Below are positions 34,924 to 57,259 of a stretch of 64,000 nucleotides of DNA, piece after piece. Position numbers and translations under genes: made by a program. The stretch's first letter is position 1. Each line of letters starts with the position of its first letter. The notes beneath the pieces were generated by a model. That model was not told the origin of the DNA. It made no database searches and saw only the letters and a program-made list of their open reading frames with translations. The DNA is from Halichondria panicea (taxonomy: Eukaryota > Porifera > Demospongiae > Suberitida > Halichondriidae): the NCBI RefSeq assembly GCF_963675165.1, contig NC_087378.1, positions 2,341,525-2,405,524 of the forward strand, in the 5' to 3' direction.

Positions 34924-37900
34924 ATGTCAACAGAACAGGTAGATACTAATCATAATTATTATAGTCTTTAGATCTGTATAAATCTAGGCTATAGATTCAT
35001 TTACATCTATATATAATTATATACACTATAGTATATAGTCTATAGTATAGTATAGTGTATATAGCACTGTATAGTCTATAGTGTGTAGCACTGTATATAG
35101 TCTATAGTGTATATAGCACTGTATAGTCTATAGTGTGTATATAGCACTGTATAGACTATACAGTGCTATACACTATAGTATATAGTATAGTGTATAGCAC
35201 TGTATAGTCTATAGTGTGTAGCACTGTATAGTCTATACAGTGCTTGCAGCCTAGAGAGTAAAATACCACAATAGGTGAGTAGTTTAATAGTTTAAGTATT
35301 ATTTAGAACACACCTAGCCAAGATTAAGTGTTTTAATCTGCGTGCCGAGGATGGCCTCGAGGTTAACGTGGTGCTCGAGGCGCAGCCGAGAGCATTACGT
35401 AACCGAGAGGCCATCCGAGTGCACCAGATTAAAACATGTGACTTGGCTAGGTGTGTTCTAAAGGATTTAGTGCTGTCACGTGAGCTCTAGCCTCGTGGCA
35501 GCTAGATCTAGCTACATTTTAAATCAGTTGCTGGTGGCTAGCTAGCTAGCTAGACGTAATAGCAAGTTTTAGTAGGTTTGTAGATCCAGTAACTGATGCA
35601 AAGGAGGCATATTTTACTAAAAATTGAAGACGGGATGAGGCTTTTTTTTGGTGGGGCAAAACTTTCGGCCACACCTCCTTAAATGCCAGGTAAAAGTATA
35701 CAAAAAACTATCTTTAAGAACAGTACACATGCATAAAATACTGTACATATATACTTTTAATCAAGCAGAAGGCCATCAGGATGAGATGATACTCCTTTAA
35801 TTTTAAACATGGCAATCATTACCATATATTTAAGGTACTTACGGGGGGGGGGGGGGGGCAACCCCACTAAATGAAACCCTGTTGATCGGTACTTTTGTAC
35901 AGGCTTTGACAATTAACGACCTACAACATGTTTACGAGAAACTACATGAAAATGCAAGCCCTCACTGGTTCAACCTGGGATTGGCTCTAGGTCTAACTTA
36001 TCCTGTTCTCACCAACATCGATAGCGAGCATCGGGGAAATAATGTGATATGCTTGCGTGAAATGTTGGCTGAGCTCCTGACTGCACAACATGCAACATGG
36101 AGTCTTCTGTCAGACGCTCTCAAAAATCCCACAGTGAAGCTCACCAATTTGGCTGATAGCATCACAGGTTTGTGTATTTTGTAATTTTGCCAGTGTTGGA
36201 AAAGTAATAACATATAGTATAAACAGGCCTGTTTTCATAGGAAGTTTGGGACAACAGAGGAATAGGGTTATTAAGCTGTGTGAGATATACAGACTACATG
36301 TGGAAAAAATGATGTGTGGTTTTCACGCAGAGTGCATGGCTATTGTGGCAAACGTGCATTTTTCCTGCATTTTTTCCTGATAGTTGCCACAATAGTCACG
36401 CGCTTGCGTTAAAAACACACATCATTTTTTTACAGTGTATATATAGATATTAATGGAGGATATCAGTCAAATGTTCACTAACAAAGTACTCAAGTAGAGC
36501 AGCTATATAGCCTCCCGCAGATCCTCCTCAAGACGAGACATGGACAGCACTCACGGCTTGCCAATTTACTGAGAGGTCATCTGCCTTGTGGAAGCAATCG
36601 CAAATTTGAAGAAGTGCTTCGTAATCCAGGTTATATAGTCGTTTGGAAACACTGCATGTGCAGAACGTCCTAGAGATGTCTGTATACTTGGAGAAAATGC
36701 TGGCCGCAAAAAACTTGCTTACTTATAGTCTCATGAATCAGTCGACCTTGGAGAGTCCGGCTGATTCATGAGACTACTTTACTTACTAGTCAGTCAGACA
36801 AAGTGCAGTGAAAACATACAAACAGAGAAAAGGCTAAACTATATGTCCAGCCAGTTTCTTGATGTGACCTTTCCCTGCAGAGGTAGAACAGTTTGAACAT
36901 GAATCATGTTAAATATTGCTAAACACAGGCAAACCCATGCACTGCCAATCCTTTACGTAATTCAATGTACAACATAACAAAGTAAACTATAATTAAATGA
37001 AAGTAAAACATGGCGAGTGGCATTAGCACAATGCAGCAGCTTGCATGCAGCATTTGTTAGACACAGGTGCTATGTATAAATATATAATATAATTATTAGG
37101 CCAACATCACTGATAAGTATGCTACCACACTATATATGTACATTTTTTCCCTCCACTAGTTCAAGAAGTTGACGAGAGGCTGAGGCTACTAGCAGACAAA
37201 GGAAGTCTGTCAAGGGAGCTCAGGTGTGACGTATCTGCAGGATCACATAACAAACTCCAGCCCCTTCTAAACCAAGCTAAGAGTGAGCAACTAGCTATAT
37301 ATATAGTGTATATGGCCCTGTTTTTATTATACTATGCATGCATGTACCGTATTACTAAAGTATTTTGCTGGTGAAGCGAATGAGCCAAATCAGCAGAAAA
37401 GTTGACCCTTTTTGCGATCTAACTATTGCATTCTGGCAAGATCGTCATTCATGTTTTTATCTTCTTTCTCCTCACATTCAGATTCAACAACTTCACCAGG
37501 GCCCAGCTTTACCTGTCCATATTGTCAACAATGCACGCTTGAGCAGTATTTGTCAGAAAAAGGGTGTCCTGAGGCAACTGGAAAAACCCTCTTTCCATAT
37601 CTTAACACACCCGCACTCTCTGATGAAGATCGATTAGTACTAGAGGCCACTCTCACATCTGATACTGAGAAGATGATCAGGCTCTTTGCTTTAACTGACT
37701 CTACTATTCTTCAAAATCTCAAGGCGGATGTAACAGAGGTCAAAAATTTGGTTTTGACTTTGGTTTCCTCTTCCAAAGAGGAGAAATATATTGCAAAACT
37801 AGAAAAAGCTGATACGATTCCGCATATTTTTGTTGCCCTTAGGCCGTACAAGTCTTTCCTTAACTACGAGATTGTTAATATAATTGTTGCAAAATTTGGC

Positions 37901-38308
37901 TCCGATGAAGACAAGAAGATCATGGAGGATTATCAAATTGAATTTAGCAAATTTTGTAGAAGATGTGCTTTTGAGATTCCCTGCAACAAGCTTTCCAGCG
38001 CAAGGAGTGAGCAAAAAATAGTGTCAGTGAAATTAACTTCAAAAGGCTCTTCTCTTTGTGTTGCTGTTTTGACCAGAGATACCATTGCTTCTATCCTTGG
38101 CATGAAGCCATGGGAACTTTACTTATGCAGTATCGAGGAGGGATGTATGTGTCTGAGGTTCTTTCTGTCGGCAAAGGTTTTTGCTCAGTTTTTCCCACCC
38201 ACGGTTTCACAACTAGCTTCTCTCTGTGAGGCAGAAATCAGTATTCTTGAAGATGTAGCACTTACGACTACTAAGAGGTACATACTTATGTCCATATTGC
38301 CAGTATAA
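34924..38308 (+). CDS. Death-domain protein with sponge-type C-terminal module (gene F)
   Basis: Exons 34924-34938 (MSTEQ), 35903-36167, 37160-37282 and 37482-38308 join in consistent phase to about 409 residues. Residues 6-93 are a Death domain: WFNLGLALGLTYPVL, CLREMLAELL and TWSLLSDALKNP are its helices 2-5, with the conserved Trp and LG. Death domains assemble signalling complexes in apoptosis and innate immunity. A linker (SRELRCDVSAGSHNKLQPLL) precedes a C-terminal module with a Cys cluster CPYCQQC and later KADTIPHIFVALRPYKSF, RRCAFEIPCNKL and CMCLRFFLSAKVFAQFFPP. Another gene in the window shares this module with a CARD-like N-terminus. The module's function is unknown. The first exon is assigned by phase and by similarity to sister first exons. 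Confidence 0.78.
34980..35245. repeat. AT-rich imperfect satellite (TATAGTCTATAGTGTRTAGCACTG)
   Basis: Repeated TATAGTCTATAGTGTGTAG and GCACTGTATAGTCTATA units in both orientations make a strongly self-complementary tract. It lies in the first intron of the Death-domain gene. Confidence 0.85.
35305..35465. repeat. Palindromic element in Death-domain gene intron 1
   Basis: TTAGAACACACCTAGCCAAG on the left is mirrored by CTTGGCTAGGTGTGTTCTAA on the right. Inner arms GTTTTAATCTG and CAGATTAAAAC, and GATGGCCTCGAG and GAGAGGCCATC, are also mirrored. Probably a MITE. No ORF. Confidence 0.75.
36303..36433. repeat. Palindromic element in Death-domain gene intron 2
   Basis: AAAAAATGATGTGTGGTTTT and its mirror AAAAACACACATCATTTTTT flank an inner inverted pair TGGCTATTGTGGCAA and TTGCCACAATAGTCA. 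Likely a MITE. A second, shorter palindrome (AGTCTCATGAATCAG ... CTGATTCATGAGACT) is at about 36727-36776. Confidence 0.75.
36530..36960 (+). repeat. Left arm of a 4.6-kb-spaced inverted repeat
   Basis: This segment recurs in inverted orientation at 41164-41580. Shared blocks include GAGAGGTCATCTGCCT, CAGCCAGTTTCTTGATGTG, CCTTTCCCTGCAGAG and CAGTTTGAACATGA. The arms sit just outside the part of this locus that is duplicated at 56-61 kb. Confidence 0.75.
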
Positions 38309-38390
38309 TTATATAGTATCAGCTGATATGCACTTAGCTTCTTTCCCACACCCAATTCCTCTCCTTAAAGTGAGTGTGTAGGAGGCTAAT

Positions 38391-39315
38391 TAGCCTCGTT
38401 CCCAGCCCGACTTTTTTCTGTTATAACGCTAGGTTAATGAAGCACCACAGGTGCTGATGCCTCGATGGGGATGTGCCAACCTACATAACATAACCTACTA
38501 GCTATTACTAATACAAAGATGAACAATTTTGCATTAAATTGTGCTGCATGCAGGCAGAATCACAGGGAAACTCAAAGAGTGGGAAATGATCAACCTGATC
38601 GTTGCTAAAAAGGATGCCAAAAGTCTAAAATTAATGGCTGCTGCATCAATATAGAGCCTTGCAGCTCTCTTCTTACTCTAGCTTGCAGCTACCAATAGCT
38701 AGCATTCTAGTGCGTGTTAACTCCATAGACAAGTTTTGCTCCACACTCTTCTGAAAAGGCATTCCAAGTAAGCAAAACTAGGCATAACTCAAGAACCAAG
38801 CATTATTTCGCAAATCTATGAATTAAAATCCAAGAAAACATGACTAGAAGCCTATAGAAACTTTTACTTGCACTTCATTACCTTGATCAGCTGTAGCAGT
38901 CTACACACACACACAAACACACTACTGCCGTTTACCTCGCTTGCGTATATGCGCACCGAGGCATAAAAAGAGGGCCTATTGTATGTGTGATAGAGCACTT
39001 CAAATTACCCAGAATATGAGTACTGAACGTCACACTTTAGTAAGATTATGTACCTGAGGTTTACTGTAAGCTAGTCCATCTATAGGTTCCGTATCGTACT
39101 CTATGGCTGAGTTCCGTGAAGCTGTGGCTTATGCTATTGCGTTGGTCTAGAGTCTAAAGCCTCTCATCAACCCCTCTATATGCGATGGTCGTATGGTGTA
39201 TATAGTGGGGTTGTCTTCGCAAGCTGCAGTTGGAAGCATCATATAGACTTGCCATAATTATATAGCCTGTGCGGAACCAAGATAACAGAAAAAGAAGAGC
39301 CTGGGACCGAGGCTA
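38391..39315. mobile_element. TAGCCTCG-family TIR element with nested family-2 MITE
   Basis: Left end TAGCCTCGTTCCCAGCCCGA with a following TTTTTTCTGTTA; right end AACAGAAAAAG ... CTGGGACCGAGGCTA. A family-2 MITE occupies 38433-38965 within it. The remaining interior has a short frame ATGGCTGAGTTCCGTGAAGC (MAEFREAVAYAIALV) that resembles the start of the helicase-like fragment in the 29215-29725 element. In the other segmental copy (57341 onward) the right end is missing. Confidence 0.75.
38433..38965 (-). mobile_element. Family-2 MITE nested in a TAGCCTCG element
   Basis: Opens with AGCACCACAGGTGCTGATGC and closes with TTTACCTCGCTTGCG and GCGCACCGAGGCATAA. It runs opposite to the 62.5-63.6 kb copies. 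A (CA)n tract lies next to the NRF1-like end, as in the other copies. Confidence 0.85.
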
Positions 39316-39400
39316 GCATATTATAATTAGTACTGACATCAGTGTTTTACATTCAAATTGCACAGGAAGCGAGTCATCGCCAAATATTCATTATTGCACA

Positions 39401-39609
39401 CTATCGTATAGTGGGTAATTTTCAGGGGACAAAATATTCGTGGTTCAACAATATTGAGACAATTCGTGGGTAATACTTTCGTGGTTGGAGCTTGCACTGC
39501 AGGTAAAGGTAGATAAGGTCGCTTCATTCGTGGGTAAAATATTTGGGTCAGACCTTCAACCACGAAAACCACGAATATTTTGCCCGACGAAAATTACTCT
39601 CTATACAAT
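39401..39609. mobile_element. TACCGTATAGCG-family MITE in segmental copy 1
   Basis: CTATCGTATAGTGGGTAATT on the left and AAATTACTCTCTATACAA on the right are decayed ends. The arms CAAAATATTCGTGG and CCACGAATATTTTG remain. Absent from segmental copy 2. Confidence 0.8.
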
Positions 39610-41163
39610 AGAAAGTAGCCAATCTCCGTCAGATACCTATATAATCGGCGGCTGTTGCTCGAAGCACAAACCGATTTTGCACAAAACTAACTACATGGAC
39701 CTACAGATAGGTAAGAAAGTAACAGCTCCCAAAAATTTGGAAAGAATAACTCGCTTGCGGACGGAGTGGTGGTCATGAGAAGTGAGCTTCCGAATTGATC
39801 AATTGTCGTCAGTGAGACATTTATCTCTGTCTTTGCACGCTTACTAAGCACTGAAACTACCAGCACTAAACAATACTTCTTGGCACAACTTTAACTAGTG
39901 AGCACTACTTGCAGGCAAAGCAGCGTTAGCTGCAGATTGAGCCCCACCCAACTAGGCATGACGAAAATTTTATGCTGATTCAGCAATAATTGTGCACATA
40001 ATCTTCAGTGCGGCCTGAAATCGATGCTAATCCCAGTTTAATTATTGCTGACTGTACACAATTGTTGCTGAATCAGCATTATTATAGGTATCTGGCGATA
40101 ATCGGTTACTTACTATATAGGAAGTGCTTCTTATTTGGAATAAAACGTGTTCAGCAGTGAGAGAACAAGAAACAAAAATGTTCCTGTAATTGATGTAATT
40201 ACAGCGCCACCATAGTTTAGGCGCCACCTGGCTGAACAATTTGGGGTTAGACTAAAAGATGCGCCTACCGTTGTTATAATTATTTTTTGAAAGATGCGGT
40301 AGAAGTGTACTGCACCACGCTCTTGTAAGTCATTTTGACTTTAAAACAGTTCTCTTCTGCTATAGCAGTGTAGACTGTATCTTCTTTTGATACATTATAG
40401 CCTTCTGCAAGCTCTCCTAGCTAGTGTTCTAGAGTCTCATTTCTTTGTCTTTTAGTCGTTTTCTTTCTCTTAAACTCGTCTTGAACTGGAGAAGATCAAT
40501 TTTGTTGCTACGCATCCTTCTGATTGACAATGCAACCACATGTCACGCATGCGCAGAAGATTTAACCTGTACTTTGGTTTCCAAGCAATCCAGGCAATGC
40601 TGGCACAGACGAGTGATAATCTTCAGTATATCCATAGGATAATATCAGAATATTAATGGGGATAGATTCTGGAGATAAATAAGCACCTGCTCAGTGCAAT
40701 CCGTATTTTTCTCCTTCTGTTAGAATCGGCCTGGTACCTAGGCTATATATAGGCTAATACCATAAAAAGTGGGTAAGTGTTTTAATTTGGCGAATTGACA
40801 ATTTGCCAAATTTAAACTGTCAAATTAAATCCGGTGGACGCAACGTCAGTGTTGTAGTAGCTACACCTGAGACGCCAAATCAAAAAAACGTCAATTCGGC
40901 TCAAGCTCATTTACTAAATATAATTTTCCTGTTATACAGCATACACTATGAAATTGTGTAGCGTTTGTTTCAGATGTGAACACAGATAATTTGTGGCTCA
41001 GTGGGGCTGCATGCACTGGAGAGACGTATTAACATTACTTCAGTGCGAATAGTAGACATAGTAGTTTGCGCGCCGAGGGCCCATTCAATAACTAATTTGT
41101 TGTATGACAAAATTAGAACCTGATACTTGCAGTGCATTGTATTAGTAAAACCAGTAGGTTTTA

Positions 41164-41580
41164 CATAGGATTGGCAGTGGGTTTGCCCGTGTTTAGCAAT
41201 ATTTCAATTATTTTGACTCATGTTCAAACTGTTCTATCTCTGCAGGGAAAGGCCACATCAAGAAACTGGCTGAACAGATAGTTTATTTAGCCTTTTCTCT
41301 CTTTGTATCTCTCATTTCATAATCCATAAACATTTTAATGAATGAATATTTTCATTTTAAAAATTGCACTATTTCGACGTTTCACCGCTCTTTGTCTGAC
41401 TGACTAAGTAAGTGAGTAAGTAAGTAAGTAAGTTTCTTGCCCAGCATTTACTCCAAGTACAGCCATCTCCAGGACATTCTGCACAGGGTTTCCAAACGAC
41501 TACAACCTGGATTACAAAGCGCTTCTTCAGATTTGTGATTGCTTCCACGAGGCAGATGACCTCTCAGTCTCTATTTCTCT
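41164..41580 (-). repeat. Right arm of the inverted repeat around gene F 3' half
   Basis: Reverse complement of the 36530-36960 arm, with a diverged central portion containing an (AAGT)n run near 41405-41430. Together the arms enclose the last two exons of the Death-domain gene and its downstream transposons. Confidence 0.75.
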
Positions 41581-42295
41581 TACCTAGACAATTCCGCCAT
41601 CTTTAATGACTCAGCAATTGCGTTGTGGCCAATAATAATAGATAGGCGTGGCTAATAAACCGTGCGCCTAAAATCAGCTTCAGGTCATCCGGTCACATGG
41701 ACTTACATATGTGAATGCCTGAGGAGTCGTATTGTTCAGCGCAAAGATATAGCTGAGGAAATCGAAGTAGAATTCGGACCGTTTACATAACTAATGCTTC
41801 ATCAAGACAGTAAATAATACTCAGCATGTTTATTTTATACACTATACATCTTAAACAAACAAATTAATGATTCAATATAATAGCTATAGCTACTGTTAAC
41901 ATAGATAAAGAAGATGAGGTCAAGCTCATTGCAAAATTGAAAAGAGAAGTGAAAGAAGCTACGAAATACAAGTTGCTATAGAAACCACAGTCGTCTCTTT
42001 CCTTCAGTGCCAATGCCCTGGTCACAAAATGCTTCTGCATCCTATCGAAAGATGTGTATGGATTCAGTTTCAGTGTGCATAGTAGCAATCCTGCATGAGG
42101 AAAGGACAGACAGCTTGTATTGGAAAGGTGTGTGTGCAGTTGCGTACGTAGATCTATGTGCATAATGAATTAATTGTGGTCATTCTTGTAATTATTATTA
42201 GCTGCTGTTTTATACAGCTTGTCAATCTTGGTGAGAAAAGTAAACTAGAGGTGTCGAAATTGTGATGGTTTCTCCTTCCACTGGAATTCCACTGG

Positions 42296-43075
42296 AACTA
42301 GTGTTCAAGCTGGCGCTGTGCTAATGCCTCTCGCCATGTTTTTGCTTTCACTGAAAAGTATTAGAGTGTTATATTAGTTTCTATAATGAATTTTATATTA
42401 AAGTTAGCTTATCTATATAAAATCACTGAGAAGAAAAGACTTATTTACATGCATCTATTGTTGTATTATGTGGCTTACTAGGACCTCAAGAAAGAAGAAA
42501 ATTGATTCTTCCAGGATCTGTAGTTCAGTGTATATAAGAAAGACCTGTGTACATGCATATTGTTATCTATATTGTTATATGGTAGTGTTTTGTGGCTTAC
42601 CAGGCCTTCAAGACAAAGATGATTTTGCCAGGAGGATCTGGATCTGGATCTTGGATATTATTTCTCACGTGGGGAATGAGCGCGCATGCGCATTACATCC
42701 ACAGGAATAATTAAAGGGTGTGTCCAAAGAGATAAATGGCTACTGCTAGCTAGCTGTTTTAACAGATATTTCTGAGTATTGTAGCTAACAAAAAGCTAGC
42801 GCTTTAGTGCAAGGCTAACTCATATGTTGAATAGAAAGTTTGTGCGGACAGATGATGCTATGAAAGATTCTGAAGAGACTGCAACAGCCTTCAATGTGAG
42901 TCAAACTAGCCATAACTCGAGAAAGAAGCTTTAGTTTGCAAATCCACGAATCAAAATCCAAGAGAACGTGGCTAGAAGCCTATAGAAGCTGTTAGCTTTC
43001 GTTACATTGCAACCGTTGAGCAGTTACAGCTGGAACAGACACACACACACAGTCAGCTTCATATAAATTATGTCT
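42296..43075 (+). repeat. Dispersed duplication, copy 1 (with 47405-48140)
   Basis: Opens with TAGTGTTCAAGCTGGCGCTG, includes GGGAATGAGCGCGCATGCGC and a family-2-like MITE subfamily (GTGCAAGGCTAACTCATATG, CATAACTCGAGAAAGAAGC), and ends at ACACACACACAGTCAGCTT. The second copy keeps the same order with small deletions. No coding frame is supported. Confidence 0.85.
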
Positions 43076-43178
43076 TGATCCTTTAAACGTTAAACTATGC
43101 ACTGTAGACTACCACCTTAGTCAAGTAGTGGGTAGTCATCACCAATTGTCCAATCACTAGTTATCAGTAATAATTCCA

Positions 43179-43738
43179 ATGAAAGCACCGCGGGTGCTGA
43201 TGCCTCGGTGGAGGTGCCAAAGCTACATAACATAAAGCTAATAGCTAGCTTTTATACACACATTCATGATTGATTATAATTATCATGATTAATTTTGCTG
43301 CATGCATCCAGGGAAACTCAAAGAGTGGGTAATGATCGACGATGATAGTTGTTAAAACGATCGATACCAAAAGTTCCAGTCTAAAATTAATGGCAAGTAA
43401 GCAGAGCCTTGCAGCTCTCTTCTCACTCTTGCAGGTACCAATAGCTAGCGTTCTAGTGCAGAGTTAACTACTAAGTAGAGTAGCAACACTCGGTGAACAA
43501 GTTTTGCTACGGACTCTTCTGAAAAGGCAGCAATGGTAAGCAAAACTAGGCATAACTCGAGAACGAAGCTTTATTTTGCAAATCCACAAATACCAAGCCA
43601 AGAAAACATGACTAGCAGCCTATAGAAACTCTTACTTGCACTTCATTGATCCTTGAGCAGCTGAAACAGTCTACACACACACAGACACACAGACACACTA
43701 CTGTATACCTCACTTGCGCATGCGCACCGAAGCATAAT
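43179..43738 (-). mobile_element. Family-2 MITE, near full length
   Basis: Begins AATGAAAGCACCGCGGGTGC, then TGATGCCTCGGTGGAGG, and ends TACCTCACTTGCGCATGCGC followed by ACCGAAGCATAA. The TTGCGCATGCGC motif at the end is a near-perfect NRF1-type palindrome. Confidence 0.88.
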
Positions 43739-43911
43739 AATTGAACACCACGACATTTACTACAAAGTGATGTTATTGTATAAATGAGTAAATAAATGAG
43801 TATAGATCTAGATATATATCTACTAGGTGAACACAAAACGTAAGTGATAGCTCAGAAACTTGGCATATTGAGCATTTCCACTGTTCCGAGCATTTCCACT
43901 GTTCACGGATG

Positions 43912-44707
43912 TCATGCATGTTGGTCAATCCTCACGCAATTAATGTGGAACCAACGTGGACAGTAATCACATCCCACCCAATTCTCCTCGTCTCCTGCCT
44001 GCTGGCACTGCTGACAAATGTTTGTGTCGATCTTTTTGTTGATCTTTTTGTTCATGTGTCTGCGTTTCACCACAGGGGTGGTACTGTGTCTCCCCTTCAT
44101 CCGTTTGCTCTGCTTCAACACAGGAGTATTGTCTTCAGTGCAAAGTGTAAGAGCACGCTTTAGTTGTTTTGTCACGGCTTCACCACTGCTCGCTGGATCT
44201 CTGTTCGTACCACTGTCTGATGGAGGGGTCTCTACAGCTACCACAGGAGGAGTTGTACTGCTGTTTGATGGAGGGATCTCTACCACGTGAGGAGTGTCTG
44301 ATGATGGAGGGGTCTCTACCAAAGGAGGAGTTGTACTGCTGTTTGATGGAGGGGTCTCTACAACATGAGGAGTGTCTGATGATGGAGGGGTCTCTCTTTC
44401 CACACTGGTTTCCTTTGGAGGAGTCTGACTCTCCCCGCCCCAAAGGCCACTGGAGTCCTTGTCAACTTCCTCTAGCTGAACACACCTCTTCTCCATGTAT
44501 AGCTATAAAAAGGACACAAAATTGTATGATTATAATTATGTGCATGCTGCATATACTAAAGGTATGCCCTGATAAATTATAATTTTAGCATGAATATTGA
44601 TGAATGTTATAATTATTATAATTACGTACACCTGCTTCCAACTTTTCGAGAAAAGACTCGTCAAAGCTGGACTGGTAGATCTGCGAGCACTTCTTTTGCT
44701 TAGCATG
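43912..44707 (-). CDS. Truncated PHD-finger protein gene (3' exons)
   Basis: The main exon, 44502-43936 (or to the stop at 43912), encodes a low-complexity region of repeated TPPSSDTPHVVETPPSN-type units, then basic stretches (KRRHMNKKINKK). It ends in the first half of a PHD zinc finger: CQQCQQ, WVGCDYCPRWFH and NC in C4HC3 order. PHD fingers usually read histone H3 tails. The final Cys pair is missing if translation runs to the stop. A GTGAGG donor just after the last Cys (43935) could splice to another exon that I could not find. An upstream exon ending at 44632 is phase-compatible (starting MLSKRSARRS). Further upstream, VQDFQKRIANFPLNT near 44740-44860 may be coding but is cut by a minisatellite. 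It resembles a transposase-derived PHD tail or a broken host gene. Confidence 0.55.
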
Positions 44708-44867
44708 CATGGATGCTAGCTAGATGGCATCGTGGTCCTGTCAGTTGTTTTGTTTAGGAACCATTGGGGATTGACAGTGTTCAAAGGGAAGTTGGCAATT
44801 CTCTTCTGAAAGTCTTGCACAGTGATTGAGATCTGTTTGTCACTAGGTGCAGCACAGAGCTCCCGTA

Positions 44868-45372
44868 CAATTACTTCACTACTCGACTACTTCACTATAC
44901 CCAACTACTTCACTACCCAACTACTTCACTACCTCACTCACTGGCACTTCACTACCCAACTACTTCACTATACCTCACTCACTACTTCACTACTTCACTA
45001 CTTCACTACCCAACTACTTCACTACCCAACTACTTCACTACCCAACTACCTAGCTACTGCACTACCCAACTACTTCACTACTTCACTACCCAACTACCCG
45101 ACTACTTCACTACCCAACTACTTGACTACTTGACTACCCAACTACCCAACTACTTGACTACCTAACTACTTGACTAACCCGACTACTTGACTACCCAACT
45201 ACTTGACTACCCAACTACTTGACTACCCAACTACCTAGCTACTGCACTACTTCACTATACCTAACTACTCGACTACTTGACTACCCAACTACCTATAGCT
45301 ACTCCACTACCCAACTATATAGCTACTCGACTATACCAACTGAACTACCTGGCTACTGCCCAACTAAGTCTT
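44868..45372. repeat. Minisatellite (CTACTTCACTACCCAA-type units)
   Basis: About 500 bases built from ACTACTTCACTACCCAACTA-like units, with variants ACTTGACTACCC and CTACCTAGCTACTGCA. One strand is almost free of G. The open frames across it (TSLPNYFTT and similar) are repeat artefacts. Confidence 0.95.
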
Positions 45373-46041
45373 AAATGCTCAAACTACTCAGTTGGCTATA
45401 TACAATACATAGACACTCAGCATATACATATATACGTGACTGCCCATCCTAGATATATACTTTTTTTTACATGTGACCACAACTAGAGTCTACTCAGTTC
45501 TTTCCTCATTCACTGAAAATCGGCTGTCTTTGTTGACTACAACATTACTGGCTACCAATGGTAGTCAAAAGCTTGTCATTTAATTAACAATCGTGCCATA
45601 TCTAGTCAGCTTTACCGTATCCCTCGTGCGGCTACGCCTCGAGGCATAATAAAGAGCCAGATAACATCAGATCAATTAATGAACGCGGCCCAACTTCTCA
45701 CCTTCCAGAGTGTGTGAGGAGGACTTTGTCACTACCAATGGAAGGATTAAGCTGGGAAATTGATCTGTAAGCACAAAACTGTTTACAAAGAGCGGAGACA
45801 AGTGAGTTATCAGTACAGGTGCATGCTGTTCAAATGAAGAGTTACCAAATTAATGTTCACACAGATAAATCAATCAAGGAAATGATAGACAGAATGAAAC
45901 GGAGTTGTTTATTTCATATGTCAGAGGACTACAGTCTTGCTTTATAATCTCCTCAAACAAATCATTGGCATTATTTAGACCTCAAAGCCTTTAAGTGTGA
46001 GAACTATGGAACGCCGTTTACGACAAAATTCAGGTAAAATG

Positions 46042-46613: not shown

Positions 46614-46672
46614 ATTCTGTCTGTATATATTTTACAGGACAAAGCTGGTGTGGTGACCATGATAAATAATTT

Positions 46673-46937
46673 ATGGATCCCTCTAGATCTGTGAGGAGTG
46701 GTGATGATCAAAAGGTAAGTTGTCCACAATTATGTACAAGCCGCAGACACTGTCTTTTTATGATAATATTGTCAATAAACAGTGGTAAGCCCGCTCCCCA
46801 TAATATTCTACATGCATTCTCCTAGTAGTATCTAACCTAACGACCTCTTTCCTGTATGTTGTTAAACCCAGGTGACTTAACAGGAATCTGGCCCACAAGC
46901 TGTCCACCAGTCAGTGGACGATCGCGAGCTTAATTAA
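46673..46937 (+). pseudogene. Two-exon remnant of an ankyrin-family gene (first and last exon)
   Basis: ATG 46673-46714 encodes MDPSRSVRSGDDQK and ends at a good GTAAGT donor. Exon 46884-46937, after an AACAG acceptor, continues in phase as ESGPQAVHQSVDDRELN and stops. The last exon, and the sequence after it up to about 47400, matches the final exon and 3' flank of gene B (ESCQQYVYQSVDELNED). The ankyrin body is missing, so this is probably a deletion remnant, or a 31-residue micro-gene if transcribed. Confidence 0.6.
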
Positions 46938-47404
46938 TGAAATTGTTTCAGCCATAGCCTGCACAAATGTCTATATAGCTTAATTCAATGTAACTTCCCA
47001 AATTGCATTCACAAACTCGTACGACATACTTCACCCCTATAATTATAGATCTAGATATAGCGATCATGGTAATTATATTCTGGAACATTTTGATTTGCTG
47101 CTTACTTTTTTTACTGGTAGTCTTGATTAACAATCAACACACATATGGCATGTTATGTCAACACCAGTGTATACATGTAGTCTACATAATTATGGCATTC
47201 AGTTTAATAGCGGCATGTATAGTTACTATAATAGGATAAGCGATGTTTTCAGTTTCATGCATGCAAGTTGCCACTGACATAACATAACAAGGAAGTCCCT
47301 CTAGCGTAGCTGTGCATGGTCTACTGATTTTACCACAATACTTGTTGGCCAATCAAATACAAGAAGAAACACTTCCAACACTATATAATTATGGTAACAA
47401 CAAT

Positions 47405-48140
47405 AACTAGTGTTCAAGCTGGCGCTGTGCTAATGCCTCTCGCTATGTTTTTGCTTTCGCTTAAAAGTATTAGAGTGTTATATTAGTATTAAAGTTAGCT
47501 TATCTATATAAAGTCACTGAGAAGAAAATACTTATTTACATGCATCTATTGTTGTATTATGTGGCTTACCAGGACCTCAAGAAAGAAGAAAATTGATTCT
47601 TCCAGGATCTGTAGTTCAGTGTATATAATATCTAAGAAGAAAAGACCTGTGTACATGCATATTGTTATCTATATTGTTATATGGTAGTGTTTTGTAGCTT
47701 ACCAGGCCCTCAAGACAAAGATGATTCTGCCAGGAGGATCTTACATGGGGAATGAGCGCGCATGCGCATTACATCCACAGGAATAATTAAAGGGTGTGTC
47801 CAAAGAGATCAATTTCACAAATGGCTACTGCATGCATATTTTCTGAGTATTGTAGCTAACAAAAAGCTAGCGCTTTAGTGCAAGGCTAACTCATATGTTG
47901 AATAGAAAGTTTGTGCGGACAGATGATGCTATGAAAGATTCTGAAGAGACTGCAACAGCCTTCAATGTGAGTCAAACTAGCCATAACTCGAGAAAGAAGC
48001 TTTAGTTTGCTAATCCACGAATCAAAATCCAAGAGAACGTGGTTAGAAGCCTATAGAAGCTGTTAGTTTTCGTTACATTGCAACCGTTGAGCAGTTATAG
48101 CTGGAATACACACACAGACAGACAGACAGACACACACACA
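47405..48140 (+). repeat. Dispersed duplication, copy 2 (with 42296-43075)
   Basis: Same order of blocks as copy 1, from AGTGTTCAAGCTGGCGCTGT to ACACACACAGTCAGCTTTAC. Here the right end continues into TACCGTATCCCTCGTGCGGC and TACGCCTCGAGGTATAA. That end also occurs alone at 45607-45650, so it marks the true terminus of the embedded MITE. Confidence 0.85.
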
Positions 48141-48200
48141 GTCAGCTTTACCGTATCCCTCGTGCGGCTACGCCTCGAGGTATAAAGATCACAAATGTTA

Positions 48201-48329
48201 TACCGTATAGCGGCACTGCAGGTAAAGGTAGGCAAGGTCGCTTCATTCGTGGGTAAAATATTCGTGGTCAGACCTCCAACCACGAAAACCACGAATATTT
48301 TGCCCCACGAAAATTACACGCTTACGGTA
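48201..48329. mobile_element. Internally deleted TACCGTATAGCG-family MITE
   Basis: The left end TACCGTATAGCG jumps directly to GCACTGCAGGTAAAGGTAGG, which lies mid-element in other copies. The right half is intact to TTACGGTA. Confidence 0.8.
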
Positions 48330-48334
48330 GATCA

Positions 48335-49857
48335 TAGATGATACAGTACTGACGTGGATGTGAAACGGCCTAGTATCCGGAGGGGTCCACGGGAATTGTC
48401 TGAAGCTATCATCCTAACGAGCAGATTATGTTAGAAACCTGTAACTGTCATGTTTATATAGCAACCAGAGCGTAGTAAACAGTGTTCCGTGTCTGAAAAC
48501 TGGTGAAAATGACCGGCACACATTGATACTTGCAGTGGGCTTGTAGGTAAGACTAGTTTCTCTAAGCTCATGGGAGAATATCATATTTTAGCATAAATTT
48601 TCCTGTAAAAATACTTTGTGTGAGATTTTTGGCTTGGACAGTAAATATTCAGGTTACCATTCAGTAGTAATACTTGAAGTACACTGTAAACTACAAGGAG
48701 AATCTATGTTTGACAACTGTTATGAAAGTTTAAGTGCTATAGAAAGGGCTAAAGCATGAGTTAGTTGCACTTTTTGCGTGAGATTATTTCAAAACCTGTT
48801 GAGCCTACTTTTTGCATATTTAGCTGATGAAAACCTTCGTGTATTGATGCAGCAGGAGAATCTATTAACTAAGCATACAGTAAAGTTATTGGAAAAATAT
48901 AGCCTCAAGAAAAATATGTAAAATCCATGTACATGTACTGTTAAACAAAAATTAATGCTACGTTCTTATTACAACTACAATTATGATTTCTATCAATAAG
49001 TTTACACGTACATGTACATGTCATTAACTTTCCAAATTGCAGTGTTGTCTTTCGCTGAGCTAAGATATCAATTGCCAAATGTTAGCTAATTATACTATCA
49101 AGTGAAATTTATCCCAGGACCTACTCGAGTACTACTTCTCTAGGCAACACCATCGGTGAAGACAGCATTAACGTCCAACCTCTTTTCAAGTGCCGTGTAT
49201 CTACACTTGTATAGGAATTTCGAACCGGCAAGTTGGAATGTGTCTCTCTCACAGCCACTTCGTAAACGATCAAGAAACAGTTTATCGTGTACTATAAATT
49301 AATACTCTCAAGACTATTATAATATCAGCATGTACACGTACACGTACAGATCATCAACAATTTCACCCGTTTGCTTATCTCATGCTAGTGTTATGAGTCA
49401 GCCACACTTCTTTTGATCTACATGCATGCTACCAACGTTGAGTGGCTTGCTTTTTGGATATAATTACATGGGTACAGGGGTAGATCTACTATAAAATAAT
49501 AATTATAGACTATTTACTAGACTAATTATAGAATAGTTAATATCATCTTGCACTGGACTGTACTTCCTCTACCTCCTCACAGTCACTACTACTGTCTTCG
49601 CTTAATACACTTGCAGCATCAATATATCCTTTCTGTTAATACATAGATTCTCTTTTATCTGTCTCTGGCCAGTTCTGCCAACTCACTTACACAGCTTGGT
49701 ATAACCTCGATAATTTCCTCGGCGTTTATTTGGAACAAATTTCCTAATTTACGGAAACTAGTAAATTACCTCGGATATGCCCGTTACTATGATAGCTTCA
49801 AGCAGAATACCGGAATCCGGAAACGTTTCACATCCACGTCAGTACTGTATCATCTAT
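48335..49857. mobile_element. 1.5-kb non-autonomous TIR element
   Basis: Perfect inverted ends of 34 bases (ATAGATGATACAGTACTGAC continuing TGGATGTGAAACG on the left; the complement at 49824-49857). Flanking GGTAGATC on both sides looks like an 8-base target-site duplication with one extra G, as in hAT elements. No ORF above background lies inside, so it depends on an outside transposase. Confidence 0.75.
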
Positions 49858-49960
49858 GGGTAGATCTACATAGTCTACATGTATAACATTTGTGATAATT
49901 ATAGCTAATTGTTTCTAGCCGGCCAGATTCTTCATTAATTTGTGATCAAGGCACACAACT

Positions 49961-50092
49961 ATGGCAACACAATTACAGGTAGTTTATACTATAATTATTA
50001 TAGACATAATCATAATATTATGTCATAGTTGTGTGCCTTGACAAGGCACACAACTATGACTGACAAGGCACACAACTATGACAACACAACAG
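49961..50092 (+). other. Duplicated five/six-codon first exons of gene D with hairpin
   Basis: Two candidate first exons lie in tandem: ATGGCAACACAATTACAG|gtag (49961-49978, MATQLQ) and ATGACAACACAACAG|gtag (50078-50092, MTTQQ). Both end in phase 0 and both are preceded by GGCACACAACT. Between them, 50022-50060 forms a hairpin of GTCATAGTTGTGTGCC and its complement. The same pattern occurs at 62136 and, with changes, at 34924. Confidence 0.65.
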
Positions 50093-52191
50093 GTAGATCT
50101 AGTTATAGCTATACGTGGCGGTGCATTGTCTTGACAATAATTGTCTTGCCTGTGCATAAATAGTCTTACAAATGTTAAAATGTACTGCTAAGCATAGATT
50201 GAAGAGTTAGACTCTTCAATCTATGAGCTATAAAGTAAGTCTATATTATTATAGGTAAAACCCTGTAGAGTCTATAGTACATTAATTATCACAGGCATGT
50301 AGACCTACGCTTCTTGGTACCGTACGTTTTTCCTCCATTATAGAAAATGACTTGCTGGACCCAATGGCTTAAGCAAAATATGGCAGAGGTGAAGCAAGGT
50401 AATCTATCACACTTACTACAAGATTGTCTACATCAACGGGATCAAAATTTCAATTGGACTGCAACTCATGCTTTTGCAGCAAGCTCAGAATACTTAGGTT
50501 TCAAAGTGATGAAATTGTTGCTGAACAGTTTGGGAGATGAACATCAACTTTTAATGAAGGATAAAGATGGAGATATTCCTATACAAAGTGCAATTCGCAG
50601 CAAGGCTCCAAAAGAAATAATTGAGCTATTCCTCATCATAGCAAATGAACTAAACGTGACAAATGATATGCTGTGTTCTCGTAACAAGAAAAATCAAACT
50701 CCGTTGTTATCCGCATTTGATCACTCACACTGGGTTGCTGTAGATGTTCTACTGGAGGAATGTGTCAAGTGCAACAAACTGCCTGAACTCACAGGAGTAA
50801 ACGCACCAGCTGGTCTGAAGTCCAATACCCTTCTTCACCGGGCATTTAAACGTGGAAATACAAAGTACTTTGATATCTTTCTCAGAGTATGCAATTCAAA
50901 CGGCATAGAGGGTGACCAGCTTGAAACAGCAGTTTCAATTCCCAACAAAAAAAACGAGACTCCTTGGTATTATGCAATTCATTATTTGAGCAGTGACGAA
51001 ATGTTTGAGAAAATCTTGAAGATGGCAAAACGTTATCTTTCACTGAGTTTCTTGTATGTTGCCGCAGATTCTAAATCTACCATGCTACACGAAGCACATC
51101 GAATTGGAAGCGTTCAACGTTGCCGATTACTTAAAGAAAATGGTGCTGAAGACACAGCTGACAGTAACGGTTTATTCCCTATTGATAGGAGCCGTATTAT
51201 TGTGCAGGAAGACAACGTGCTTAACATAGAACAAGAGGGTCTTGGTGAAGAAAGTGCAACAAACACAACAAGTGATAAAAAACATCCTAGTGAAGAAATT
51301 GCAATGAACATTGAGGTAAGCGTTATCATTATTAGGGCGCCACGGGTTATAGTAGTCGGCCTGTATGTCTGTTTGTTTGTCTATTTGTGACTGCTAAGCT
51401 GCCATGGATGCCAAAGTGGTATTATACGTTTACCGCATTGATAGCCTCAAGATAAGATAGTAGGTTAGCTAATAGTAAGAGATTAAAGAAAAAAGCAAGC
51501 TGTAGTGTACACACACTCATTATGCAACCTCGAAGTGTAGGAAACATGTTTCTTGTTGTCGAATAAGCAAGCAAAAGCTAACTTCAACTTGCACAATGGC
51601 TACAAGCTGATTCGAGACATCAAAACTATCTGGCTTATACCGTCGGCACTGGATGTGGAAACGCCCTAATTTTTGTTATTTTCCTTAGCTAACCCCTCCC
51701 CCTTCCAAAATTACATCCGGTGCCGTATATGCCACTTATCTAGTCCTACGCATGTGCACTGCGTGGAACCATCTATCTGCTTGTTCTCATCATGTGAATA
51801 CTGTTTTAAACATAATGGTTTAAAAATCTTTGAAGACAAGTTCTGGAAGTCCAACAGATTCTGCAGTGACATGTAGAGCACTGTTGTGAAAATGTCGTTG
51901 TACACATTGTTTTCGACTTGCATGTAATCTACTTTAAACTACTTTAATAAACAACCCCGACTAACGCCAAGGCCCATGCAAGGATTCTGCACTTTAGTGC
52001 TTTAGTTCAATTATAAAGCATGATAAAATTAATGTGTTCTGAAATTCATCATGTTACAGCTTTGTACCACTGGAGATGGACCAATGCAACGGTCAGAGAG
52101 CGCCTCCTCCAGCTTATCAAGTTTCGACGGTGAAGCTGATTTCGAAAATGGTCAGGATGTGTACCGTGGTAGTAGTGACGACCCACAGTAA
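50078..52191 (+). CDS. Ankyrin-like gene D (CWTQWL family)
   Basis: Exons 50078-50092, 50344-51315 and 52060-52191 join in phase 0 to 372 residues. N-terminus MTTQQKMTCWTQWLKQNM. The body shows degenerate ankyrin repeats: FNWTATHAFAASS, DKDGDIPIQSAIRSKAP, NQTPLLSAFDHSH, NTLLHRAFKRGNTKYFD, NETPWYYAIHYL and STMLHEAHRIG. The last exon encodes a short Ser/Asp-rich tail ending SSDDPQ. There are no membrane segments. Compared with gene A it lacks the long acidic tail. The decayed copy near 34 kb and gene E at the window end are its closest relatives. Function is unknown; an intracellular binding protein is likely from the fold. The alternative first exon 49961-49978 would add one residue. Confidence 0.82.
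51790..51905 (-). pseudogene. Stray duplicate of an RTK-relic exon
   Basis: The minus-strand stretch encoding LYMSLQNLLDFQN matches the 52.5-kb segment LYTSLQNMLDFQN almost base for base over about 42 bases (TTCTGGAAGTCCAACA and CTGCAGTGA in plus orientation). It then diverges. It is probably a duplicated acceptor plus exon start from the adjacent kinase relic. Confidence 0.5.
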
Positions 52192-53151
52192 ATGTCATTC
52201 AGCCGGCTCTCAATGTTACACTATAATCTCATATTATCTTTTGCTGTCACCCCTTTAATCATTCAAATAGTGTACAAAACTTTATCAATTATTTAGTACA
52301 ACGTTATAATGATAGGTAATTAACAACTGCAGCTGATGTATGTGTACATACAAAACGACACTGAAAGAAAAAAACTAAAAGAAAATCACCACGGTCAAGA
52401 AAATAGATGAGACAGAACAAAAAGATAAATAAAGATGGTTGTTGAGTGCCATGACAAAGTGTTAGTGCTATAGAACAGTTGAGAGAGCGACAGGTTCTTC
52501 GAATTGAGAGTAGTGCCATAGTTCTGGAAGTCCAACATATTCTGCAGTGACGTGTAGAGCACACAGGTGATCAAATATATAGAGCCATGCATGGAGACAA
52601 GCATACGTGTACATAGTATGTAGATGTAGTATAATATTATGGTAAAGGAAGCTCACACAACAACACAACAATGTAGTAGAGTAAGTGAGTTGATGAACTC
52701 ACCACTTTAAAATTGGCCAGGTCTTCGAGCTTCTCATGGATGACGGAGAAGTGTGGGGGGATCCACTGGATTCCTCCTACAACAGTCCAGCTTAAGTTCA
52801 TGGCTGTAAAGGAACTTAGATAGTGATCAAGCTATAACAGCAGGTAGGTACGTGTGGGTTGCCACAGAACAACTTTCAATAGGGTGGTGGTATGTACAAA
52901 CAGTAGGCACTTCACATTTTTTGGGCGCAGTGCTGAGTACAGGGCATTCTCATTCCGTTCATGAGTTGCGAGTAGAGGTCCTCAGTCTGAATCTCCCTAT
53001 AGGGGGTACCCCCCACAGTCCCCAGCTCCCACAATGCCACAAACTACCACCTGCAAAACATTGAGCATGGGTCACAATTGATCTAGACAATTAATTTGCT
53101 ACACTGTACAGGACATGCAAATATTAAGCAGAGACAATAACGTCAACAATG

Positions 53152-53341
53152 TAGCCTCCTTCGCAGCCTCTCCTTTTTCTGTTCTTTGTCACACAGGTCA
53201 ATAAGATAAAATACGGTAAGAATTGGAGGAACAAAGAAAGAAAGAACGTCCAAGAAGCCGGTTCGTTCTTTCTTTCTTTGTTCCTCCAATTCGTACCTTT
53301 GTGACAAAGAACAGAAAAAGGAGAGGCTGCGAAGGAGGCTA
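53152..53341. mobile_element. Near-perfect palindromic MITE in the kinase relic
   Basis: TAGCCTCCTTCGCAGCCTCT on the left mirrors AGAGGCTGCGAAGGAGGCTA on the right. The mirror continues inward through TTTTTCTGTTCTTTGTCAC and AATTGGAGGAACAAAGAAAG. About 190 bp. The low divergence of the arms suggests a recent insertion. Confidence 0.85.
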
Positions 53342-54189
53342 GTAACAATGTAGGTATGTCCTCTGTATGTAGTGGCGGTCTGATCAAAGAGGGTTTCTGG
53401 GGCTAGCTACTTCATGATGTAGTTTCTGCTCTCAAAGGTCATGTAGAAGGAGCCCACATTGTAGATCTTGATGCTCATGTTGGCGCCAATCAGGACATTC
53501 TTGGCACAGAGGGCACGATGGACCAACTGCAGCGAGGAATGTAACAAATGAACACACTGTGCCAAAACATGTGCCGTGTGGCATGATTACTCTTAACAAG
53601 CCATGGCCATAATTATGTGATCTGAAAGACCAATAATTAACCGTTACTTTAACACAAGTACAACCCACCTTTCTATCAGTGAGGTATCTCATGCCGTTAG
53701 CGATCTTGGCACATGTATATCGTCCGCTGTGACCACGGGATGTCCTCAGGAAACCCAGCAAGTCACCGTGGCACATGTACTCCATCACCATGTACATAGG
53801 CTCTGTAAGGGGAAGGGGGTAGCAGTCAGTGAGTGATCTTGTGGGTGGCTTGTAGAAGACTACTCAAGTTACAAAGTCATTCCAACACACATTTCCTCTA
53901 CAATACCAAGGAGGATACTTAATACACCGCATGAATAGAATCAAAGCTATTGGCTTCCAGCCACTCAAAGCTGAAGTAAGTGCAGTAGGGACATAATTAT
54001 GTAGAACATATTATTATAGTAACCATACATGCACACACACACATGCACAATGCTCACTTCCAACGGTATAGACTCTCAGCATTGAAACAATATTCTTGTG
54101 AGGCCCAATACTGGACAACATCTCCATCTCAGCCACTAGAGCTTTCACATCGTCCTCGGTGGCATCCACTGCACACAACACAACCACAA

Positions 54190-54369
54190 CAGGGTGTCAT
54201 ACAGGATTTTAAAGTAGAGGGGGGAAATAAGAAAAGTAACCAGAAAATGTTGCTAAAAAAAGGTCAACTGTTATTTCAATACCCAGCTATGGACACTCAG
54301 TCATCATTGAAAGGGGGAGGAAATTGGAGCTAGGGGGGGATATCCCCCTTTTCCCTGTATGACACCCTG
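54190..54369. mobile_element. MITE with CAGGGTGTCATACAGG ends in the kinase relic
   Basis: CAGGGTGTCATACAGGATTT and GGGGGGA on the left mirror TCCCCC and CCCTGTATGACACCCTG on the right. About 180 bp, no ORF. It lies in the intron between the VAIK and alpha-C exons. Confidence 0.82.
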
Positions 54370-55530
54370 CACAAGTGAAAGCTTAGTATACATGTACAAC
54401 CACAAATTAATAGGCAATTTGAATCACTATAAAGTGGAACCTAACAATTATATAGTTAAGGAGGTCATTGAAATGCCCAGCTGCACTGTGGGTTCTAGTG
54501 TGCCCACAATTCAGGGCCATGCCAAATGTGGGCATACCTCTGACTGGCTTGATGGCCACATCGACAGGTTTCTCCTTGATGCGCCTCTTGTAGAACGGTG
54601 AGCTTACCGTCACAGAGGGGGTCACACAGCTTGATGTTATCTCCCACTTGGGGTCGATATTTATCAATTCAATGTGGTTTTACAGCAGTATGAGACATGG
54701 TATAAGGGAAATTGTGTACAGACATTGATGTGCTTAAGGAAATCCTGTACACACTGATGTAATAGTAAACTAACACATAATTACAGTTTATATATACTGG
54801 TGTAATACAGTATTGCGGCACTTGTTGCAGGGACATTTGAAATGAAACGTGCAGGGATTATTGGGCAAGGAACTGGTCGGAGGTGGGGCTGCTCATACCA
54901 GGAGAGGCGGGATAGCCAGAGCTGGGACGAAGCGTGAGCGCTATGTACTCATTTTGAGGGACACCATTAGTCTTGACGTTAAATGGGGGGAGGGGGAGAG
55001 GGGTCAAAATGTTAATGTCACAATGACGCTATGGTTTCCAGAAGGTTTGGACAAGCCTCATTTAATATAGTAGTCTATTGCTTGCCATTAGTAGATCTAC
55101 ATGTAATTAGGAATGAGAGCCTTACCTGTGTGGATATGGATAGTAGCAGAGGCAGAACCATGTAGTCTAGTCTACCAAGAGTTCATTCCTAATGCAACGT
55201 ACTCTTGAGTCTACCACATGGCAATAGTCGTTTCCAGGAATATTTGGGGAAGTCCCTTGCCCCTAGATCTATCTAGATCTATATTAAAAGTGAAAGAAGA
55301 CTCAAGGCCTTTAATTAATAGCCTAAAGGACCTCATTGCGGCAAGACAGGCTAGGCTAGGTTGTTCAGGTAAATCTATAAACTGAAGGACTTTATTTAGA
55401 ACCTAATAGATCTACTTAAAACCTATTAAACTTCCCTGCATGTAAAAAAACTGAACACTGTAGATCTACTAGATCTAGTTGATTAGCTAGATCTAATTAA
55501 AGTTTTCCTATCTAGATCTACACTGCAACT

Positions 55531-57259
55531 ATGGCTACCAGTATTGACCATGACTCTGTTGTATCAAGGTCTTCAAGCCAAGTACAATCCGTTGAATATC
55601 TCACCATGCGCAAGTGTACCTCAGTGTTGATCGACCTCGTTAAATCGTCTCTCAGCACTATAGGCCCTGCTTTTTTCGCTGAAGAATATATAGGTGAGAC
55701 CACTAGAGATCTAATTGGACCATCCAGTAAAACAAGTGATGTTGAAAGAGCACAAATACTTGTGGATCTGATGACCGATCAAGTTCGAGCTGATCCTAGC
55801 ATGTACATGAAGTTTATCACCCTCTTGGAAAAGGAAGGCCCCTGGGTCGAGTTATTCTTAAAGAATATCAAGCAGACGTATAGCTCGGCTTCCCTTGAAT
55901 TTCGTCTATCGATGAGCTGTGATGAACGGAGTGATTGGCTTTCTGGCTGTGGAATCAGTGCAACCACTGTTTCACATTTTAAAGGTGTTTGCATTCTGTT
56001 AGATCTAGCTGTGGGTGCATGATGCTGCATGTTAGACACCATGACTTTCCACCAGGCCATTAATTGTTTGAAGGCATAACTGTAGCATGTACGTATAGGT
56101 ATCATACATCCATCAGGAATGCGGCATGATGTCATACATTATACGCGCACATAATTATATATCTGTCCATTTAGTTATTAGACAGGTGCTATATATGCTA
56201 ATAAGTATGCTACCACACCATGTGTAAACTTTTTCCTCCGCTAGCTCAAGAAGTTGACGGAAAGACCTTTGTGAGGCTACCAGTAGACAGAGGAAGTCTA
56301 TCAAGGGAGCTCAGGTGTGACGTATCTGCAGGATCACATAACAAACTCCAGCCCCTTCTTAACCAAACTAAGAGTGAGCAACTATAGTGTATGAAGATAA
56401 GATTCATTTTTATCTTCTTTCTGTAGAGGTGACCTCACATTCAGATTCCATAACTTCACCAGGGCCCAGCTTTTGCTGTCCATATTGTCAAAAATGCACG
56501 CTTGAGCAGTACTTGTCAGAAGGGTGTCCAGAGGCGACTGGCAAAACTCTCTTTCCATATCTCAACACACCTGCACTCTCTGATGAAGATCGATCAGTAC
56601 TAGAGGCCACTCTCACATCTGATACTCTGAAGATGATCGAGCTCTTTGCTTTAACTGACACTGCTATTCTTCAAAATCTCAAGGCGGACGTAACAGAGGT
56701 CAAAAATTATGTTTTGGGTTTGGTTTCATCTTTGGGAGAGGAGAAATATATTGCAAAACTAGAAAAAGCTGATACGATTCCACATATTTTTGTTGCCCTT
56801 TGGCCATACAAGTCTTTCCTCAACCACAAGATTGTCAATAACATTGTTACTTTCTTTGGCTCCGATGAAGACAAGAAGATCATGGAGGATTACCAAATTG
56901 AATTTAGTAGAAGATGTGCTTTTGAGATTCCCTGCAACAAGCTTCCCAGCTCAAGGAAAGATCAAAAAATATTGTCAGTGAAATTAACTTCAGAAGGCTC
57001 TTCTCTTCGTGATGCTATTTTGGCCAAAGAGACCATTGTTTCTATCTTTGGCGTGAAGCACTGGGCACTTTGCTTATGCAGTATCGAGAAGGGATGTATG
57101 TGTCTGAGGTTCTTTCTGTCGGCAAAGGTTTTTGCTCAGTTTTTCCCACCCACGGTTTCACAACTAGCTTCTCTCTGTGAGGCAGGGATCAGTATTCTTG
57201 AAGATGTAGCACTTACGAATATTAAGAGGTACATACTTATGTTCATATCGCCAGTATAA
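55531..57259 (+). CDS. CARD-like protein with the same C-terminal module as gene F (gene G)
   Basis: Exons 55531-55984, 56245-56373 and 56427-57259 join in consistent phase to 471 residues. Residues about 28-115 look like a CARD-type death fold: LIDLVKSSLSTIGPAFF, YIGETTRDLIG, VERAQILVDLMTDQV, DPSMYMKFITLLEKEG and FLKNIKQTY are its helices. From residue 152 on it is closely paralogous to the Death-domain gene: SRELRCDVSAGSHNKLQPLL, CPYCQKC, GKTLFPYLNTPALSDEDR, RRCAFEIPCNKLPSS and FFLSAKVFAQFFPP. It lacks a three-residue KFC insertion present in the paralog and keeps 12 extra bases at the last exon's start. CARDs recruit caspases or immune adaptors by like-like contacts. The CARD call rests on pattern only. 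Confidence 0.78.

Follow-up and report, generated by a model that had tools for sequence, protein, structure and literature searches.

A 64,000-nucleotide stretch of the genome of the sponge Halichondria panicea (NCBI RefSeq assembly GCF_963675165.1, contig NC_087378.1; C2:2341525-2405524), hereafter the window, carries two plus-strand genes 17 kb apart that combine a nearly common linker and C-terminal module with different N-terminal heads of the death fold. Gene 1 has a Death domain as its head and gene 2 a CARD-like domain. In the predicted proteins the head is followed by a zinc-ribbon-like patch with four cysteines, then by a helical SFxNY region and, at the C-terminus, by a divergent domain that resembles TRADD-N. 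The DNA itself establishes this predicted domain order, the alternative heads and the common phase in which they are joined, the genome-wide family and the mosaic make-up of gene 1. The products of both genes are probably intracellular adaptors that belong to a large family specific to this lineage, in which the head would serve as an address tag and the TRADD-N-like part as a fixed bridge, gene 1 having had its head swapped by recombination within the intron that precedes the linker.

Shared module and different heads

The predicted exons of gene 1 lie at window positions 34924-34938, 35903-36167, 37160-37282 and 37482-38277 (or 38308), and those of gene 2 at 55531-55984, 56245-56373 and 56427-57228 (or 57259), as judged from frames and splice sites. 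The linker exons (37160-37282 and 56245-56373) are identical at 112 of 123 aligned bases and the module exons (37482-38277 and 56427-57228) at 715 of 784, while the head exons (35903-36167 and 55531-55984) agree at 98 of 227, which amounts to no evident similarity. The shared stretch extends over 1417 columns at 90% identity with a BLAST E-value of 0, far beyond chance. A preliminary description of this DNA had reported nearly the same linker and last exon behind a different upstream exon; this holds, as do its coordinates, frames and splice sites, and the motifs that it listed are present in both genes. The coding sequence before the head/linker junction measures 280 nt in gene 1 (15 + 265) and 454 nt in gene 2, so that both junctions are in phase 1, as had been proposed. 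The linker exons (phase 1-1) are 123 and 129 nt long, thereby preserving the phase.

DNA homology between the two genes begins at about 37110/56198, within the pre-linker intron, and continues across the module and on into the 3' flank. Also common is ankyrin-gene DNA further upstream, where a plus-strand fragment before gene 1 (33950-34375) is 82% identical to positions 50540-51000 within the ankyrin gene before gene 2 (50335-51479, plus strand; Pfam Ank_2, 3.9e-12). Because homology occurs both in the ankyrin DNA and from the pre-linker intron onwards, the locus looks like a duplicated cassette that differs only in its middle. The two module copies are separated by 18.95 kb and have a synonymous divergence of 0.12.

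The gene 1 head is identified as a Death domain by a profile of ten heads (A4; the window head and nine relatives), for which all 17 PDB matches at E<1 are FADD, PIDD or RIPK1, 11 of them FADD (best 3.8e-4). Relatives of its exon with 68-88% identity number 57, of which C10 and C13 together carry 50, and a 45%-identical exon at C14:4989951 passes Pfam Death; by itself, the gene 1 head is not matched by Pfam Death. Within the gene 2 head exon, positions 55588-55881 encode a domain that appears CARD-like. The best PDB match of the CARD-head profile is ICEBERG (E 0.037), the other 22 of its 23 matches at E<=10 not being CARDs. CARDs also lead the structural matches of a moderate-confidence model of this head, in a Foldseek search that returned nothing at E<=0.001. 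The head alone has no Pfam CARD match; the head-module frame at C1:14944333 reaches 21.8 bits against a Pfam CARD cut-off of 23.9.

No Pfam Death or CARD match at E<=1 was found in nine paralog frames or heads scanned one by one, and nothing useful came from searching Pfam and PDB with single sequences of the heads and the module. The preliminary description had made its case depend on the heads scoring as death folds: in single-sequence Pfam scans they do not, but the family profiles, together with the structure model, support one Death and one CARD-like head. The death domains of FADD, PIDD and RIPK1 have a fold like that of the gene 1 head, and the CARDs of ICEBERG and Apaf-1 probably one like that of the gene 2 head; these five proteins are not known to contain a TRADD-N-like module. 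Members of the Death-exon family of gene 1 (L031:3775-4059, minus strand; L030) have a further downstream exon, of which two copies agree at 98% over 55 residues; it is death-domain-like by eye and has no Pfam match.

Both ends of the gene models call for comment. The putative start exon of gene 1 (34924-34938, encoding MSTEQ) has an ATG and a GT donor, as originally described, but is weakly supported; the stretch of gene 1 with matches to the Death-exon family does not include it. At the 3' end a conserved donor, AAGAG|GTACATAC, is present in both module exons 31 bases before the ends first proposed. A possible tail exon of gene 1 (38558-38654, plus strand) has an acceptor and an open frame, with near-same DNA in a copy of the locus on C22; the homologous downstream exon of gene 2 contains indels and has a shorter reading. 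A homologous tail exon can follow the module exon donor, so alternative C-termini are possible in both genes.

Mosaic structure of gene 1

The segment 35854-36551 of gene 1, which comprises the head exon and intron flanks, is related by DNA identity to the Death-exon family: two other members match it at 90-92% over 35855-36169, and a copy at C22:74479 at 80% over 35854-36287 and 76% over 36470-36551. Homology to the Death family thus extends to 36551 and homology to the CARD-headed gene starts at about 37110, which places the junction inside the intron, in an interval of approximately 560 bases. Since intron sequence is common on both sides of the junction, the joining is attributed to DNA recombination rather than to a spliced retrocopy, and a retrocopy origin of gene 1 is rejected. 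At the level of its sequence, gene 1 is a mosaic.

The swap is likely to have proceeded from CARD to Death. In the tree of modules, gene 1 joins gene 2 and the C22 copy, each of which has a CARD head, in a starred three-member group. The linker exon is found at four places in the genome (E<=0.1), and the three besides gene 1 are all in CARD-headed genes. A module lies within 6 kb downstream of only two of the 58 Death-exon places (gene 1 and one on C14).

On C22, a Death exon of the gene 1 family is located 17.8 kb upstream of a CARD-headed module gene in the same orientation, a layout that could give rise to a chimera like gene 1. Downstream of this Death exon, on the reverse strand, L029 contains short frames that by eye resemble a broken retroelement. 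A further exchange is visible in the sequence of the C22 module copy, which agrees with gene 2 at all but two informative sites as far as 38427 (in the numbering of gene 1) and with gene 1 at most sites from 38447, with four exceptions before the flanks diverge. C22 was also considered as a plain allelic copy of the window and rejected: it is 97% identical to gene 2 until just past the module exon and then 95-97% identical to the 3' flank of gene 1 up to 41144, and pieces further out are 80-93% identical or were not found (pieces of >=150 columns at >=80%). A dispersed repeat of about 160 bases occurs between 23349 and 63250 in six direct copies and in inverted orientation, including about 0.5 kb 3' of both modules; its copies could act as seeds of unequal exchange.

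A genome-wide family and its TRADD-N-like end

The pair described initially is real but not confined to two genes: a 158-residue module query gives 126 six-frame matches (E<=10) in the 131-Mb assembly of 39 contigs. Heads were surveyed at 100 module places out of these matches, counting head places within 6 kb. Upstream on the same strand, 39 modules have a CARD head and 24 a Death head, none appearing in both lists; downstream there are two CARD and two Death places, and on the opposite strand none. The design proposed initially, one module with alternative heads, is thus genome-wide. In 32 of the 39 modules with a CARD head, and in one of the 24 with a Death head, a single unbroken reading frame runs through both parts, so assumed splice sites are not the only basis for pairing head with module. 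In a tree built from 96 modules, of which 69 have an assigned head (38 CARD, 31 Death), at least six head changes are needed and starred branches force at least four, compared with about 23 for shuffled labels. Thus, heads are inherited within clades but have been switched repeatedly.

Several observations weigh against so simple a picture. No head appears in the survey lists for 37 of the 100 modules, although seven of these have a Death domain by other evidence: phmmer places one 2.3-5.4 kb upstream of the modules at C5:2734892, C5:2777325, C5:2943741 and C6:4776580, and Pfam Death one at those at C2:6117243, C3:8274639 and C3:8281734. The CARD place C14:259120 has an E-value of only 0.17, and the module tree rests on few columns and contains several long branches. 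The CARD-headed module at C6:1217719 also has, 4.9 kb upstream, a Death-like exon missed by the lists (L027:7419-7796, minus strand; C6:1222637-1223014), which belongs either to a two-headed gene or to a neighbour. Heads are therefore not strictly exclusive per module.

The module itself contains a four-cysteine cluster (CPYCxxC...C; 37514-37567) that is zinc-ribbon-like by eye in the sequence and alignment A3, followed by the helical SF(L/F)(N/D)Y region (37805-37984), whose serine is present in all of 100 module copies except two, which have gaps. Its last 80 or so residues (38015-38254 in gene 1 and, by alignment, 56966-57205 in gene 2) look like a divergent TRADD-N-like domain at the level of the family. 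This name is given because matches to Pfam TRADD-like_N (PF20694) all fall on the module and because a Gly-Cys turn (38141-38146 and 57092-57097) fits the published definition of TRADD-N, a tiny residue followed by Ser, or now and then by Cys, in the beta2-beta3 turn (PMC8195603). Across 100 copies the first turn residue is G in 91, and the second C in 86 and S in 11; we infer that this turn corresponds to beta2-beta3.

The same domain could instead be an unrelated lineage-specific one whose weak Pfam matches are convergent, and several results point that way. Every PF20694 match in the genome is below the curated cut-off (best 20.7 against 23.7 bits). Among the matches listed, the window modules have none alone, the gene 1 assignment coming from matches in paralogs. 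A PDB search with an 18-row module profile gave three chance-like matches (best E 0.09) and one with a 48-row profile none. NCOA6_TRADD-N (PF13820) has no match in the genome, in a search in which the controls were also without a match, and an AlphaFold2 model of the module from the two window sequences (pLDDT 46.6, mostly 25-42 in the TRADD-N-like part, where an RRM-like two-layer fold would be expected) is too poor for a structure search. However, PF20694 has only eight matches in the whole 131 Mb (best E 0.044), and all eight overlap same-strand module places. Among 24,736 families it alone is matched by more than three of 48 module copies scanned singly, 11 of which match it (best 0.0012) and one of which matches NCOA6_TRADD-N (0.085). 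With the Gly-Cys/Ser turn and the Death-like neighbour also fitting the published description (PMC8195603), an unrelated domain is improbable, and the module, which the preliminary description could not name, is TRADD-N-like at its C-terminus by these PF20694 matches.

Other paralogs show additional architectures. A 1177-residue minus-strand frame (L028:125-3655; C7:3342200-3351964) joins a CARD-like head and a module to a UvrD/SF1-type helicase region (Pfam UvrD-helicase, 25.3 bits; cut-off 23) and encodes a possible nucleic-acid-sensing relative. A 684-residue minus-strand frame (L018:1646-3697) has a CARD-like head, a module and a long tail, coiled-coil-like by eye, with Pfam matches below cut-off. 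At C2:7826158-7828948, a Death place and a CARD-like one are twice found on one strand with roughly 0.2 kb between them and no module match nearby, which suggests genes with both heads but without the module. No NACHT or LRR domain was found in the open reading frames scanned, although no systematic search was made. Elsewhere in the window are a minus-strand open frame ending in a PHD finger (43912-44499; Pfam 3.2e-7), a minus-strand tyrosine-kinase-like fragment between the ankyrin gene and gene 2 (53432-53860; Pfam 1.2e-6), and two more ankyrin-type open frames (29727-31836; 77% DNA identity over 103 bases) that look like tandem copies.

Probable adaptor function and proposed evolution of the heads

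In the explanation considered probable here, a cassette of ankyrin gene, head, linker, module and 3' flank would have been duplicated, and in one copy the CARD-exon segment would have been replaced by a Death-exon segment of another family, joined in the pre-linker intron. Like-with-like assembly of the head would recruit the protein to complexes built from Death domains or from CARDs, and the TRADD-N-like part would form a fixed bridge to common downstream partners, possibly stabilized by zinc bound at the four-cysteine patch. A swap of heads would then allow a different upstream complex to drive the same output, and the family would consist of probable immune or cell-death adaptors. It has been proposed that TRADD-N links the domains on either side of it and restrains them until a signal changes their arrangement, and the address-tag reading of both genes is in line with this Death-like/TRADD-N model (Kaur et al. 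2021; PMC8195603).

Gene 1 might instead be a dead or unexpressed chance juxtaposition, in which an orphan Death exon precedes a 5'-truncated, unspliced module. The weak five-residue start exon is consistent with this, as are the 56 of 58 closest Death-exon places that have no module within 6 kb downstream and the dN/dS of 0.73 between the window modules (18.8/169 synonymous, 49.2/593 nonsynonymous), which does not differ from neutral (p = 0.22) and also counts against the main explanation. Yet gene 1 has open frames, GT-AG sites and a matching phase 1, the same criterion identifies 23 other Death-headed modules, one in a single open frame, and constraint is seen in three comparisons with more distant module copies (p = 9e-5 for gene 1 with L010, 6e-4 and 0.007). 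A chance juxtaposition is thus unlikely. Less likely still is the version preferred in the preliminary description, in which the module itself is a toxic or enzymatic effector, for example, and the heads are sensors or oligomerizers. The module is constant and C-terminal in these genes, and one paralog runs on into a UvrD-type helicase region, as such a role might imply; but no catalytic family was matched convincingly in Pfam and family scans, and "effector" is probably the wrong word since the published account gives TRADD-N a bridging role (PMC8195603).

Proteins of this kind are already known, because Kaur, Iyer, Burroughs and Aravind (2021; PMC8195603) report 357 NCOA6-clade TRADD-N proteins in Amphimedon, most of whose architectural types have one to three N-terminal Death-like domains; their data may include these very genes. 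As described there, the Amphimedon and marine-invertebrate proteins share with the Halichondria family the order of Death-like domain and TRADD-N, the many copies, the variable partners and the turn with a conserved tiny residue and Ser or occasional Cys (PMC8195603). In comparison with these text descriptions, Cys is here the rule in the turn (86 C and 11 S of 100) and the four-cysteine patch and SFxNY helical region precede the domain; moreover, retrotransposition was suggested there as one source of fusions (PMC8195603), whereas the exchange is here mapped to an intron in the DNA. Vertebrate TRADD and DEDD2 likewise couple TRADD-N to a Death-like domain (a Death domain in TRADD, a DED in DEDD2; PMC8195603), but that of TRADD is C-terminal, unlike the N-terminal heads described here. 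The open-access papers found, as judged by titles and the starts of abstracts, describe no mapped head swap of this kind. What is fresh here is the predominance of Cys in the turn and the exchange of heads mapped to an intron.

A more far-reaching proposal, which at present seems rather doubtful, is that head exchange by non-allelic intron recombination is ongoing, that the phase-1 boundary of the tandem cassettes makes death-fold exons plug-compatible, and that haplotypes differ in the head that drives the same module. If so, the population would carry a changing wiring diagram of death-fold pathways. Domain swaps in invertebrate immune adaptors are usually inferred from finished architectures. 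Here one is readable in the DNA, with a related donor exon family, a recipient cassette, a likely direction and a junction interval of about 560 bases, and it raises the testable question of whether a change of head alone redirects an otherwise unaltered TRADD-N-like module to another death-fold complex.
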